From contig JAIQFS010000006.1 in the NCBI GenBank assembly GCA_020073145.1, positions 62,001 through 126,000 on the forward strand: a stretch of DNA of 64,000 nt. Reading direction: 5' to 3'. This document shows positions 35,972 to 42,927 of the stretch, piece after piece; the stretch's first letter is position 1, and every line of letters starts with the position of its first letter. The notes below the pieces were generated by a model that made no database searches, was not told where the DNA came from, and saw only the letters and a program-made list of their open reading frames with translations. A program made the position numbers and the translations under genes. Origin of the DNA: Terriglobia bacterium (GTDB lineage: Bacteria; Acidobacteriota; Terriglobia; Bryobacterales; Bryobacteraceae).

Positions 35972-36781
35972 ATGGACCGCGCCGGAGAAAAGCTCAAACG
36001 GGTTCGCGAGCGTCTCAAGCTGACGTACCGCGATGTGGAGCAAGCCAGCCAGGATCTGGCTCGCCGTCACGCCAATGCCGAGTTTCTGGTGCCCTTGAGC
36101 CGCTTGGCCGATATCGAAAACAGCGGCAAGGTTCCCAGCGTATTCCGCCTGTACACGCTGTGCGCCATCTATCGCCTCGACTTGCAGGACGTTATGCGCT
36201 GGTATGGCGTGCCTGCCGAACAGCTGGCTACCGAGGCTTTTCGCATTGGACTTGATGAGACCCACCCGTTTCAAATCAACCTCAATCGCAGCGGGGTCGG
36301 CGCCGATCCCACGGAGAATGACTTCGACCTGAGCAAGACCACCTTCCTCAGCCAGCTGATCCGGCAGTGGGGAAGAGTCCCATTCAATTATCTCAATGGG
36401 CTAGACCTACGGAACCGGTACGGTTTAGTAGGTCTGGAAGATTGGTCCATGTATCCCATTCTTCGCCCGGGGTCGCTCGTGCTGATTGACGAGAACCGAC
36501 GCAAGATTGCGCGTGGAGGATGGACCGACGAGCACGACCGGCCCATCTATTTTCTGGAGCATCGTGGAGGATTTGCTTGCGGCTGGTGCAGCATCGAAGG
36601 GGACCGGTTGCTGATTCAACCCCACCCGGCTTCCGAGAAACAGCCGTCGCTGTTCCGGTTTCCAGAGGAGATCGATGTGGTCGGCCAAGTGATCGGAGTG
36701 GCGATGAGACTGGAATCCAATCAACGCCGCCTCGCTCGGCCGTCTGGAACCACTGCCAAACCAGTCCCTCCTGAGCGTTGA
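35972..36781 (+). CDS. XRE/S24-like transcriptional regulator
   Basis: 269 residues. The N-terminal 75 form a helix-turn-helix of the XRE type (KLKRVRERLKLTYRDVEQAS, then LSRLADIENSGKVPSVFRLY). The C-terminal 130 resemble the LexA/CI S24 fold: GLEDWSMYPILRPGSLVLID with the nucleophile-position Ser. The general-base Lys expected in a later strand is not seen; that strand is GGFACGWCSIEGDRLLIQ, with two Cys instead. It is therefore probably not self-cleaving and may sense a ligand or redox state. Shared operator-like dyads lie before it and before the next genes. Confidence 0.8.
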   Translation: MDRAGEKLKRVRERLKLTYRDVEQASQDLARRHANAEFLVPLSRLADIENSGKVPSVFRLYTLCAIYRLDLQDVMRWYGVPAEQLATEAFRIGLDETHPFQINLNRSGVGADPTENDFDLSKTTFLSQLIRQWGRVPFNYLNGLDLRNRYGLVGLEDWSMYPILRPGSLVLIDENRRKIARGGWTDEHDRPIYFLEHRGGFACGWCSIEGDRLLIQPHPASEKQPSLFRFPEEIDVVGQVIGVAMRLESNQRRLARPSGTTAKPVPPER

Positions 36782-36806
36782 GAATTCCCACACTCGACCT
36801 TCCCCT

Positions 36807-36861
36807 TAGGTCTACACCTAGGGAGGCCTCACCAACGTTCTAGCACTTCAGATCTAGGTGT
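36807..36861. repeat. TAGGT/ACCTA and ACACCTAG/CTAGGTGT inverted repeats upstream of the peptide gene
   Basis: A tight dyad TAGGT-CTAC-ACCTA lies at 36807-36820. ACACCTAG at 36814-36821 has a perfect inverted partner CTAGGTGT at 36854-36861, with centres 40 bp apart (about four helical turns). TAGGT appears again at 36911-36915. The right arm touches the operator-like dyad at 36859. Confidence 0.45.
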
Positions 36862-36874
36862 TCCGTTTTTGGAA
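36859..36874. promoter_or_regulatory. second copy of the operator-like dyad, before the peptide gene
   Basis: TGTTCCGTTTTTGGAA matches 15 of 16 bases of the site at 35850-35865. It lies 94 bases before the peptide ATG. The recurrence within 1 kb, outside coding sequence, suggests a binding site of the adjacent XRE/S24 regulator. Confidence 0.55.
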
Positions 36875-36903
36875 AATTTTCATCCGAGTTATCCCCTACT
36901 ACC

Positions 36904-36929
36904 GTACAGTTAGGTACAGTACAGTACTG
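36904..36929. repeat. GTACAGT triple repeat and CAGTACTG palindrome
   Basis: GTACAGT occurs at 36904, 36914 and 36919 (steps of 10 and 5 bases), ending in the palindrome CAGTACTG (36922-36929). The cluster is 40-60 bases before the peptide start, a usual place for a promoter or regulator site. Confidence 0.45.
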
Positions 36930-36967
36930 AAGTTAGCAGACTTCGGTTAGTAGAAAGGGTAAAACAC

Positions 36968-37087
36968 ATGAGAAGGTTAATGTTGCTAGCGGTAATGGCA
37001 ATGGCGTTTTTGGCTACGGCTAGGACTTACAGCAGCAAAGTGGATGGTCCGCTGCCCGAGTGTGACCCGTGTCCGTGGGTTCGCTAA
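36968..37087 (+). CDS. 39-residue exported peptide with a Cys pair
   Basis: A short gene ATG...TAA preceded by AGAAAGGG. The first 18-19 residues are a signal sequence (RRLMLLAVMAMAFLATA, with a plausible AxA cleavage), and the mature end is about 20 residues closing with PLPECDPCPWVR. Two Cys in CDPC could form a disulfide or be modified. Its base composition is less GC-rich than neighbouring genes. It lies between an XRE/S24 regulator and a seven-helix membrane protein on the same strand. No homolog recognised; it may be a signal, a toxin-like or an envelope peptide. Confidence 0.6.
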   Translation: MRRLMLLAVMAMAFLATARTYSSKVDGPLPECDPCPWVR

Positions 37088-37141
37088 AAGAACTACTGAA
37101 TCCTGGCGGCGCCCGGTGCTAGAATCACCAACTTGGTGGGA

Positions 37142-37927
37142 ATGGACCCGAGCGCCGCACTTGTAAGGTTTCTTGAGGGCGTACTGCTTGCGAGCTGCTG
37201 CCTGACCAGCATAAAGCTCGTGTATAGTGGCCTTTACAAGCGCTATCGAGCTTTGTTTGCATATCTGGTCTTTCGCTTTTTCTATACCGGCGCTCTACTC
37301 CTGATCTTCTCCAATCCCCGTTCGGCTGGCTACATGAAATACTGGAGCCTGACCGAACCGGTCATCTGGCTCTTCTACGTCCTGATCGTCATCGAACTAT
37401 ACTCTCTGGTATTGGAAAAACACCGAGGCCTCTATACTTTAGGACGATGGTTCCTCTACGCGGGCCTTTCTCTGTCGGTCCTGATCTCCGGCTTGTCCCT
37501 CCTCCCGCAACTGAGCGGGGGGGTGGCCCAGCGCTCGCGCCTGCTGGCGTACTACTATGCCATCGAGCGGGGCGTCGATTTCAGCCTCTTGCTGTTCCTG
37601 CTGTTGATCTTGTTATGGCTAACGAGGTATCCGGTACCCCTCAGCAGAAACGTCGTGGTGCATAGCCTGGCCTATACCATTCTGTTCCTGAGCAATACGG
37701 CCGGGCTGCTCGTCCGCGTGATCCTTGGCAAAGACCTATCTCGTTCGGTAAGCACGTTTTTCCTGGGTATCGGGGCGGCCTGCATCTTGATCTGGTTGGT
37801 TTTCCTCACGAAAAAGGGCGAAGAAGTCCGGGTCAACGTGCCCAGTTTCGGACCAGAACAGGAAAAACGGATCCTCGGCCAGTTGGAAGCCCTCAACAAT
37901 ACGTTGCTCAAGGTATCCCGGGATTAA
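37142..37927 (+). CDS. seven-helix membrane protein of unknown function
   Basis: About 261 residues with seven predicted membrane helices spread over the first 230, including LEGVLLASCCLTSIKLVYSG, TEPVIWLFYVLIVIELYSL and TFFLGIGAACILIWLVFLT. The last 30 residues (PEQEKRILGQLEALNNTLLK) form a short cytosolic amphipathic helix. No transporter, kinase or enzyme motif is seen. The start ATG 37142 follows GGTGGGA; the TTG at 37133 is an alternative. The gene begins 54 bases after the peptide gene; a receptor or sensor role is possible but only inferred. Confidence 0.75.
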   Translation: MDPSAALVRFLEGVLLASCCLTSIKLVYSGLYKRYRALFAYLVFRFFYTGALLLIFSNPRSAGYMKYWSLTEPVIWLFYVLIVIELYSLVLEKHRGLYTLGRWFLYAGLSLSVLISGLSLLPQLSGGVAQRSRLLAYYYAIERGVDFSLLLFLLLILLWLTRYPVPLSRNVVVHSLAYTILFLSNTAGLLVRVILGKDLSRSVSTFFLGIGAACILIWLVFLTKKGEEVRVNVPSFGPEQEKRILGQLEALNNTLLKVSRD

Positions 37928-40378: not shown

Positions 40379-41758
40379 TCAGGGAGCCATGTTGACGCGG
40401 ACGCCGACGTCTTTGCCGCGCGGCAGGTCGAGCACCAGAATGCCTCCCGGGTCGGATGTCTCTTCGAACACCTCCTCGTCGTCGACTTCCACCTGGTAGG
40501 TGCGCGCCGGCGCCAACCCCACCAGGATGAGCGCCTCTTGGGTATCTTCCAGGTGGAGACGAAGCTTGGGGGCGGCCGATCCCCAGGCGATCACCGCGCT
40601 TTCCAGGCTCAGCGGGGCGGCGGCGGCCTTGAGGTTGACGGAGAGCCGGTGGCCTTCGCGGAACAATTGAGCCGTTCCGTCGAAATAGCCGAACCAGTCG
40701 GCGGAGTCGTCCCAGTTGGACCGTACGAACAGCCGGCCGAACGTGTCGCTGTGATAGATCAGCGGAACATGCGTGAAGCTCAGACCGGGCTGATAGGGGT
40801 TGGCCCAGAGGAATTCGTAGGGCGCGCCGAACGGACCGCGCAGCATGAAATGGTCGTGCATGAGCCAGCCCTGCAGGTACTGACTTTCCTCGGCGTTGTT
40901 GTCGTAGGCCACCATCGCCAACTCGGCCGCGCGGGAGAGCGCGGCGCGCTCGAGGTCGGGTTCGCCGGACTCGGCCATGGCGCCGATGCGGAAATCGTTG
41001 TCCTCCCCCGGAAACGCGGCGGGATAGTAGCTGGCCAGGTGTTCGATGGGAAATTCCTTGAAGAATTTTCGGGCCGACTCGCGGAGATCGAGATTGGTGT
41101 TGTCGCGAATGGCGTGCAGGAGTTCCCAAAGCGGGTAGGCGTCGTCGCGCGGAACCACCTCGCGGCCGCTGGCGAGGGCGGGCGCCATCTTTCCTTCCCA
41201 CCACCCGCGAACCACGCGCTCGAGTTCGCGGTTGGGGGCTTGCGGCACGTGGTCGAACAAGGCCACCGCCGCCAACGCGCGCGAACGCACGGCGGGGATC
41301 GAGTCGTCACCAGCCGTCTGGGCCATGCCCTGCTGCAGCCGGGCGATGAGGCGGCTCCGCTGGCTTTCGGTGAGCAGTTCCTGGCACCAGTCAAACACCA
41401 ACGCGAGTTGGCGCAGATCCGTACCCGGTCCGAGAGCCCACGTCACCGCCCGGCGTCCGGAGGCCGGATCGCCCGAAACCTGATAGTAGAGGGCCTGCGC
41501 GAAGGCGCTTTCGGGCAGGGGCGCGTCCTGGCTCACGAAGGCGCCGAACTGCTGCCAGCGCGCTGTGGCGCGTTCGCGTTCCCGTCGCAGCATCCGCAGG
41601 TGCGCTGGCCGGAGAAACAGCCGTGGATGATCGGTGAAGACGGCCACCGGATCGTCAGGCGCGGCACGGGCCGGCGCAGCGCCCGCCGCGGTTTGCGAGC
41701 GAGACAGTGCCGGCATGAGCAGTACCAGCAGAATGGCCGTCGCGCCCATTCGTCCCAT
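40379..41758 (-). CDS. exported heparinase II/III-like protein
   Basis: About 459 residues. Signal peptide (TAILLVLLMPALSRSQTAAG), a helical toroid (about 40-290) with FTDHPRLFLRPAHLRMLRRE at the front, typical of heparinase II/III and alginate lyase-like proteins, and a beta-rich C-terminal half. No clear catalytic His-Tyr pair could be pinned down. Probably a periplasmic or secreted polysaccharide lyase-like protein. Start M12 (41758) or M15 (41749) gives a standard signal peptide. Confidence 0.65.
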   Translation of the reverse strand: MGRMGATAILLVLLMPALSRSQTAAGAAPARAAPDDPVAVFTDHPRLFLRPAHLRMLRRERERATARWQQFGAFVSQDAPLPESAFAQALYYQVSGDPASGRRAVTWALGPGTDLRQLALVFDWCQELLTESQRSRLIARLQQGMAQTAGDDSIPAVRSRALAAVALFDHVPQAPNRELERVVRGWWEGKMAPALASGREVVPRDDAYPLWELLHAIRDNTNLDLRESARKFFKEFPIEHLASYYPAAFPGEDNDFRIGAMAESGEPDLERAALSRAAELAMVAYDNNAEESQYLQGWLMHDHFMLRGPFGAPYEFLWANPYQPGLSFTHVPLIYHSDTFGRLFVRSNWDDSADWFGYFDGTAQLFREGHRLSVNLKAAAAPLSLESAVIAWGSAAPKLRLHLEDTQEALILVGLAPARTYQVEVDDEEVFEETSDPGGILVLDLPRGKDVGVRVNMAP

Positions 41759-41857
41759 CACTGGCCATTGTGTCATAGCGACACAGGCCACGCCCCCGGG
41801 GCCGCGGCACGACGTTCTCTATTGCACGGAATAGTTGATTCGGAAGGGCTTAGACGA

Positions 41858-41886
41858 TTGACAGGTGGAGGTCCGGTTGCTATTGG
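41858..41886 (+). promoter_or_regulatory. sigma-70-type promoter of a small RNA candidate
   Basis: A perfect TTGACA (41858-41863) and TATTGG (41881-41886) are 17 bases apart. The -35 is exact; the -10 is only partly matched. The start would be near 41893 on the plus strand, in a gap between minus-strand genes, so it does not serve a neighbouring protein gene. Confidence 0.5.
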
Positions 41887-41892
41887 TGGTGG

Positions 41893-42049
41893 TGAATTGG
41901 TGAAGTAACTTCAAACCTGCCCTCTGCTGCAACATTCAGGCGGGAGAAGAGTGAGCCGAAAGAGACAGCGTGCTTGCGGGAGCCGATGTTCGCCGTAATT
42001 GGAATTCACTGTTCTTCAGCCTTGGCGGTTGCTGCAGAGGGGCTTTTTT
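41893..42049 (+). ncRNA. candidate structured small RNA, 6S-like rod
   Basis: The predicted transcript of about 155 bases folds into a long rod. The closing stem GCCCTCTGCTGCAAC (41919-41933) pairs with GTTGCTGCAGAGGGG (42028-42042) with one mismatch, and is followed by T6 (42044-42049), forming a terminator. Inside, AGGC/GCCT, GAAGA/TCTTC and GTGA/TCAC continue the rod across internal loops. It has no protein-like frame. 6S RNA or an acidobacterial RNA family are possibilities; the region also contains a second terminator further on. Confidence 0.5.
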
Positions 42050-42207
42050 GTGAAGCGGTTTCTCGCACGATCTCTCCAGGGATCATAGGTAGCGGTCGTT
42101 GTCTGGCATTTCTGGATCGGGAGAATCAAGACGCGGACCCGGCCAGGAGTGGATGTTGAGTCGGACCAGGCGGCCCGACGCCGGATCCCGCCCACCCCCC
42201 GGGCAGG

Positions 42208-42263
42208 CCGCATCGGAGCCAGCCCCCAACGTCAGGGGGCAGGCCCGATGCGGTTTTTCTTTT
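42208..42263 (+). terminator. strong Rho-independent terminator on the plus strand
   Basis: CCGCATCGG (42208-42216) pairs perfectly with CCGATGCGG (42245-42253); inside are GCC/GGC and GCCCCC/GGGGGC with a 7-base loop. TTTTTCTTTT follows. It points rightward although both flanking protein genes are leftward, so it must end another transcript, possibly readthrough of the small RNA. Confidence 0.75.
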
Positions 42264-42294
42264 GGCCGACGCGCTTCCTGAAAATTCGTCGATT

Positions 42295-42927
42295 CTAGAA
42301 CGTGATGCCCAGCAGGACTTCGACCTGGTTCTGGTTGCTCGAAAACCCGCCGTTGGGGCTGAAGAAGTGCTGTGCGCCCCACCGGGTATAGCGGATTTCG
42401 GGCGACAGGTGAACATAGGGCGCATGTACGTCTAACCCCGCTCCCGTCACGAAACCCGTGGTGGTATTGTGGGCAGGCTGGTTCAGGTTCGCGGGTGGCA
42501 GGACCGGGACTCCGCTGACCACCGTCACCACTTGTTTGAAGCCTTGCAGCGTATCCCAGGCCACTCCGGCATCCACAAACGGCCGTACGACGGGGAATGG
42601 AAACCGGTACTTGGCCAGCAGCGGAAATTCCCACGCGCCGGTACTTCCGTGAGTCGTCAGTGTGGTGCCCGCCGGCGAAATGTTTCCTGCGCCCTGGAAG
42701 TTGTAGTGCCGGTAGAGCGCATCCACTTCAACGCCCAAGCCGAAGGGCAGGCGCAACTCCACGGTAGGGCCGACCAGATAACGATTGGTGACACTGTGGT
42801 AGTTGATCGTCGGGTCCTGGATGGTGTTCAGAAAATCGTCCAGAGGCGCACCCAGCTTGATTCCGGCGGTGAACGGCTGCGCGAAGGCGCAGACACCTCC
42901 CAATACGAATAAGAACAGTGGTCGCAT
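42295..42927 (-). CDS. outer-membrane beta-barrel protein
   Basis: 210 residues. A signal peptide ending in CAFA, then alternating strands (TVELRLPFGLGVEVDALYRH, FPVVRPFVDAGVAWD, HLSPEIRYTRWG) and a C-terminal Phe preceded by VEVLLGI, as in OmpA/OMP_b-brl-type barrels. An eight-strand barrel is likely; no enzyme motif. It lies downstream of the lptB gene on the same strand, though with a 62-base gap. Confidence 0.8.
   Translation of the reverse strand: MRPLFLFVLGGVCAFAQPFTAGIKLGAPLDDFLNTIQDPTINYHSVTNRYLVGPTVELRLPFGLGVEVDALYRHYNFQGAGNISPAGTTLTTHGSTGAWEFPLLAKYRFPFPVVRPFVDAGVAWDTLQGFKQVVTVVSGVPVLPPANLNQPAHNTTTGFVTGAGLDVHAPYVHLSPEIRYTRWGAQHFFSPNGGFSSNQNQVEVLLGITF

Follow-up and report, generated by a model that had tools for sequence, protein, structure and literature searches.

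We found that the 64,000-nt stretch of DNA analysed here (the window) contains the gene of a conserved structured RNA which, as judged from sequence comparison, represents a new regulatory-RNA family absent from Rfam and is not 6S RNA. We consider it probable that the gene stands alone, depends on sigma-54 and is controlled by a CHASE2 kinase/NtrC-type regulator circuit, with the RNA acting in trans. This reading is carried by the conservation of the RNA structure, of the promoter and of an enhancer-like repeat (UAS) upstream, by the uniqueness of that repeat in the genome of the window, and by the co-occurrence of the RNA with one regulator. In the open-access literature we found neither a paper on this RNA (Acidobacteria, Solibacter or Bryobacter) nor a description of a regulatory small RNA circuit in Acidobacteria.

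The RNA gene lies in a gap between the leftward open reading frames 40379-41791 and 42295-42927, and its features are collected in Table 1; the RNA start was placed by the spacing to the -12 element. The segment 41858-42060 folds at -81.4 kcal/mol (z = -3.2), with one of 200 shuffles equally good, and the closing stem is 99.1% paired in 84 sequences. The original prediction of a small RNA gene with a rod-like fold, a long closing stem and a T6 tract between leftward genes is borne out by the sequence, by the fold and by the conservation seen with the covariance model R1 described below. A simple promoter and terminator scan listed neither element of the RNA gene, as both fall outside its rules for -10 boxes and for loops.

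Table 1. Observed and predicted features of the RNA gene and its surroundings (positions in the window).
Feature	Position	Strand	Detail or basis
Divergent gene, 470 aa; conserved neighbour outside the RNA gene	40379-41791	-	
Enhancer-like inverted repeat (UAS) TGTGTC-ATAGC-GACACA; proposed sigma-54 activator site	41769-41785	.	
TTGACA hexamer, clade-specific	41858-41863	+	TATTGG 41881-41886 after 17 bases
Sigma-54 type promoter TGGAGGTCCGGTTGC	41866-41880	+	-24 GG 41867-41868, -12 GC 41879-41880
Small-RNA gene of roughly 158 nt, rod-shaped, terminator-ended	41892-42049	+	window sequence
Predicted 5' end with a conserved leader, GTGAATTGGTGAAGTAACTTCAAAC, largely unpaired; possible site of pairing	41892-41916	+	-12 spacing
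Structured RNA body: closing stem, middle stems, apical hairpin, terminator	41917-42050	+	R1 match, 111.9 bits
Closing stem CCCTCTG with CAGAGGG	41920-41926 with 42035-42041	+	window sequence
Apical hairpin motif CGTGCTTGCGGGAG	41969-41982	+	alignment A1
Intrinsic terminator: closing-stem 3' arm and T6 tract	42035-42049	+	T6 42044-42049

A DNA search of 61 genomes (the genome of the window and 60 relatives) returned many partial homologs as well as full-length ones with 69-85% identity, and an alignment of 26 homologs (A1) served as the basis of R1. At E <= 0.01, R1 detected the RNA in 134 of 150 Bryobacteraceae (Acidobacteriota) genomes, including 101 of the 109 of good quality, and 70 of 76 genera were positive. 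The order-level sample gave 119 positive genomes among 150, all of them Bryobacteraceae except G039 (family f2). A model rebuilt from 84 sequences (R2) was positive at E <= 1e-4 in two genomes, both Bryobacteraceae, of a phylum-wide sample of 199. The gene is single-copy in most genomes. On these sequence comparisons, the RNA marks the family Bryobacteraceae and is near-universal there; Acidobacteria are abundant in soils, and an RNA found almost throughout a large family of them has thus far stood outside Rfam.

A scan of named genomes with a pattern derived from the RNA, without regard to the promoter, found at least 119 loci, and R1 confirmed 115 of 119 among the matches listed. Of 80 titles among these, almost every one belongs to Bryobacterales, Solibacter or other Acidobacteria. 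The four loci with no R1 match (L109, L122, L138 and L144) were taken as chance hits and dropped. The promoter profile of 104 sequences does not include ten loci without an exact 3' AGAGGG, of which R1 recognises six as true members, and L048 and L092 were dropped for too short an upstream sequence. Two loci with other titles also carry the RNA (L035, titled Bordetella parapertussis, and L067, titled Planctomycetota); both bins are probably mis-titled Bryobacteraceae. On an IMG/VR contig (L151), bases 1-580 include the RNA and are 100% identical to the host locus L032, and phage genes follow past the junction (a single-strand DNA-binding protein and a weak UvsY-like match). This junction, at around position -13 of the sigma-54 promoter, reflects either chimeric assembly or a genuine phage boundary.

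As judged from the alignments, the stems of the RNA are kept by compensatory changes, the property on which the original prediction was to stand or fall. In the 84-sequence alignment, which was fitted to the model so that pair counts lean towards the model structure, 93.6% of pair cells are standard. Changes on both sides occur in 16 of 25 pairs (shuffled mean 8.3) and in 85 cells (shuffled mean 21.6), and none of 500 shuffles was as high on either count; when partners were slid by 1-3 columns, pairing fell to 32-45%. An alignment-free arm-swap test on 106 sequences gave -36.2 kcal/mol for own 5' and 3' arms versus -28.8 for swapped ones. For the middle stem alone the values were -25.4 and -19.8, with 2.6% of shuffled 3' arms better. 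The median rank of the own arm was 8 to 11 of 106, not first, because close relatives share arms. Because a plain MAFFT alignment misaligns the arms, RNAalifold run on it left the middle stem unresolved.

The leader 5' of the closing stem has a mean unpaired probability of 0.61, compared to 0.29 for the remainder (103 sequences), and its GAATTG forms informative columns in the promoter-region profile of 104 homologs. An unpaired and conserved leader suggests pairing with mRNA; binding of a protein is suggested by the apical hairpin and by a closing stem of almost constant sequence. The apical motif is invariant or nearly so in A1, whose homologs were picked by the same motif, and is variable among 20 distant, model-found members. 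A CsrA-type sponge with GGA loops, an idea that came from the apical motif, was rejected, as there is a single loop and the motif is not conserved in the distant members. A mini-ORF, ATG-AAG-TAA, occurs in the leader of some homologs and is absent from others, so a peptide is unlikely.

The promoter was profiled on 104 distinct homologs aligned at the leader GAATTG. The strong columns are GG at -24 and TGC at -14 to -12, with G at -24 in 103 of 104 homologs. A script found GG-N10-GC in 102 of the 104 (2.2% in shuffles); the two exceptions, L089 and L104, had been anchored at a wrong GAAT-like word and do contain it. With a second anchoring, GG-N10-GC was present in 114 of 117 loci among the matches listed, the other three being two truncated loci and the viral contig L151, and all 20 distant members carry it. 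A -24/-12 promoter thus stands at the right distance from the RNA for a sigma-54-dependent small RNA.

About 100 nt upstream of -24 lies the UAS, TGTGTC-N5-GACACA, which is perfect in 76 of 114 upstream regions among the matches listed. A score of at least 10 of 12 was reached in 111 of these 114, compared to 10 of 2280 shuffles, and the remaining three belong to second copies; 19 of the 20 distant members score at least 11. Four loci without a UAS (L056, L103, L130 and L197), which by coordinates and score are the second copies in G093, G091, G064 and G065, keep the fold and the -24/-12 promoter. The genome of the window has one exact site, before the RNA, and three sites with one mismatch, none with a convincing -24/-12 element; some of the three do have GG-N10-GC nearby, and a weak second target may therefore exist. 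The UAS is absent from 20 of the 22 genomes with no match to the RNA model. As for the two exceptions, the RNA gene of G166 is cut by an assembly gap, and the site in G157 looks like chance. A putative activator site, RpoN and activators, as expected of a sigma-54-dependent small RNA, are all present.

The genome of the window encodes RpoN and 20 sigma-54 activators, none of which reached an NCBIfam equivalog cut-off among the matches listed. We set these 20 against the activators of seven genomes, three with the RNA and four without it. One of the 20 alone, a candidate NtrC-type response regulator (L222:1184-2467, at about 36184-37467 of G000:C4), gave a reciprocal best hit in each of the three genomes with the RNA and was absent from three of the other four. 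It has receiver, AAA+ and Fis-type HTH domains. Directly before its gene lies that of a kinase with CHASE2, HisKA and HATPase domains, and this adjacency is kept in all nine other genomes compared. One of the 20 activators lies in the window itself (L217, 3226-3729 on the minus strand), and its profile does not follow the RNA.

Orthologs of the regulator (at least 57% identity, E < 1e-145) were surveyed in 78 genomes: 39 RNA-bearing genomes of the family selected from the R1-positive ones of the family and order samples, G039, 19 RNA-less genomes of the family, G166 and 18 from outside the family. All 40 RNA-bearing genomes have an ortholog, compared to nine of the 19 RNA-less family genomes. 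Among the nine RNA-less family genomes of good quality, seven are without it (G003, G012, G078, G096, G128, G154 and G197) and two have it (G097 and G125, both 97% complete), as do seven less complete family genomes. It also occurs with no detected RNA in G037, in G057 and in three of the 12 genomes from a different family within the order. G166 (81% complete) has no ortholog. The RNA-less genomes cluster in few genera and are not independent, so the pattern is an association, not proof. In G011 the ortholog (G011:C12:7402-8658) contains one in-frame TAG, either an assembly error or a recent loss.

The strongest competing explanation is that the RNA is driven by sigma-54 with another activator, one of the five of the 20 that are present in all seven genomes compared. 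It gains from the occurrence of the CHASE2-linked regulator in genomes where no RNA was found, and we consider it rather unlikely, since the regulator was singled out in the seven-genome comparison and its presence pattern largely held in the 78 genomes.

For the CHASE2-linked circuit, we infer transcription, regulator binding, a signal and a mode of action from sequence as follows. The CHASE2 membrane histidine kinase and its partner regulator probably respond to a signal from the envelope or from outside the cell; once phosphorylated, the regulator would bind TGTGTC-N5-GACACA about 100 bp upstream and activate RNA polymerase-sigma-54 at the -24/-12 promoter. The predicted output is an RNA of roughly 158 nt with an unpaired conserved leader, a rod-like body and a terminator, which most likely acts in trans through pairing of the leader with mRNA, protein binding via the rod, or both. 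We found no paper in the open-access literature that brings CHASE2, sigma-54 and a histidine kinase together.

The best reading of these sequence data is a two-component system with a regulatory RNA as its main output. The further step, that the CHASE2 two-component system in Bryobacteraceae has this one small RNA as its sole direct output, is conceivable, and we advance it tentatively, with somewhat more doubt than belief: the candidate UAS occurs in exact form only once in the genome, before the RNA, so the pathway would be read out by the RNA and not by a protein regulon. If true, the rare enhancer-less second copies could be diverged partners of the first, like GlmY/GlmZ, and the locus would be a case of a signalling pathway seemingly ending in a single RNA gene. 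With a promoter type, a precise candidate site and a candidate sensor in hand, the signal, the regulator, the RNA and its targets are directly testable.

Other small RNAs under sigma-54 activators include Qrr (LuxO) and CrcZ (CbrB). Their activators and site motifs differ from those of the Bryobacteraceae locus, whose RNA has no Rfam match. The closest parallel is GlmY of Enterobacteria, which the relevant passages of the source describe as a structured small RNA driven by QseE/QseF (GlrK/GlrR) with a sigma-54 response regulator, and for which they report overlapping sigma-70 and sigma-54 promoters (PMC8745638). As far as that account goes, both systems would join a two-component sigma-54 regulator (a candidate one here) to a structured RNA, and both sites have TGTC/GACA arms, whereas the spacing is N10 in the one (TGTCN10GACA) and N5 in the other. 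The Bryobacteraceae system also differs in phylum, in its CHASE2 kinase and in an RNA with no Rfam sequence match. Among the matches listed, none of the 20 activators reached the GlrR cut-off (best 383 vs 763 bits), and the GlmY/GlmZ models of Rfam had no match at the locus to E = 10. The PrsK/PrsR regulon of PEP-CTERM genes, in the part of the source drawn on here, combines a kinase/response-regulator pair with an activator site followed by a -24(GG)/-12(GC) promoter (PMC1569441). Within that description, the two-part motif and the kinase/regulator pair are common to both, but PrsK/PrsR serves many protein genes, unlike the single site before the RNA in the genome of the window. A link to PrsR and PEP-CTERM was not supported, since the PrsR cut-off was not reached (433 vs 502.6 bits).

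The original prediction had read the promoter as TTGACA and a partial -10. Both hexamers and their 17-base spacing are indeed present, but the conserved promoter is of sigma-54 type and TTGACA was found in 29 of the 104 homologs only; the -35 reading is therefore a feature of the window's clade. By analogy with glmY, the hexamer may mark an overlapping second, sigma-70 promoter in that clade. That the gene is simply a housekeeping sigma-70 small RNA, transcribed from TTGACA and an extended -10 (TGCTAnnnT), is improbable: the perfect TTGACA at the right distance from TATTGG and its recurrence in part of the homologs speak for it, whereas the -35 region holds no information across the 104 aligned homologs and GG at -24 and GC at -12 stand out.

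The resemblance to 6S RNA and the acidobacterial families named as alternatives did not hold as identities. At gathering thresholds Rfam gave nothing for the locus and no 6S match across the whole window. A permissive scan of 41700-42320 with all 4227 Rfam families to E = 10 returned no 6S (RF00013); its sole matches were two weak ones, on the opposite strand, to animal RNA families. Acido-1 and Acido-Lenti-1 matched neither the locus nor 18 homolog loci, distant ones included, and those 18 matched no Rfam family at the gathering threshold. Some bacteria have two 6S RNAs. This precedent, together with the size, the rod-like fold and the closing stem, common to both RNAs, would fit a 6S RNA or paralog that blocks RNA polymerase as an open-promoter mimic. 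We consider this very improbable, as the genome of the window has a separate 6S on another contig (L001, G000:C31:85742-85954; 49.3 bits, above the Rfam cut-off), 6S matches at E <= 0.01 occur in 45 of 61 family genomes (nine above the cut-off), R2 run against ten 6S loci of the family gave one meaningless hit only (E = 7), and the folds are without a large conserved central bubble.

The UAS also touches the divergent gene, whose product has no Pfam match and is probably secreted, as predicted from its sequence; the gene is present in 102 other loci of the 117 examined among the matches listed. Its start codon, in the region 41749-41791 on the minus strand, probably lies inside the UAS, and the corresponding AYA triplet is retained in 100 of the 115 loci that have the gene, compared to 6 of the 14 that do not. 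The arms of the UAS score at least 10 of 12 in all 14 first-copy loci that are without the gene, so the arms are under their own selection; that the repeat and the upstream conservation reflect the gene's coding start only, with no enhancer, is hardly credible on these counts, for all that the start codon and its triplet fit it. On the other side of the RNA, L040 encodes a cysteine-containing protein of about 95 aa, convergent to the RNA and 172-469 downstream of the first base of the closing stem; it has no Pfam match, and homologs occur in 45 other loci of the 117 among the matches listed.
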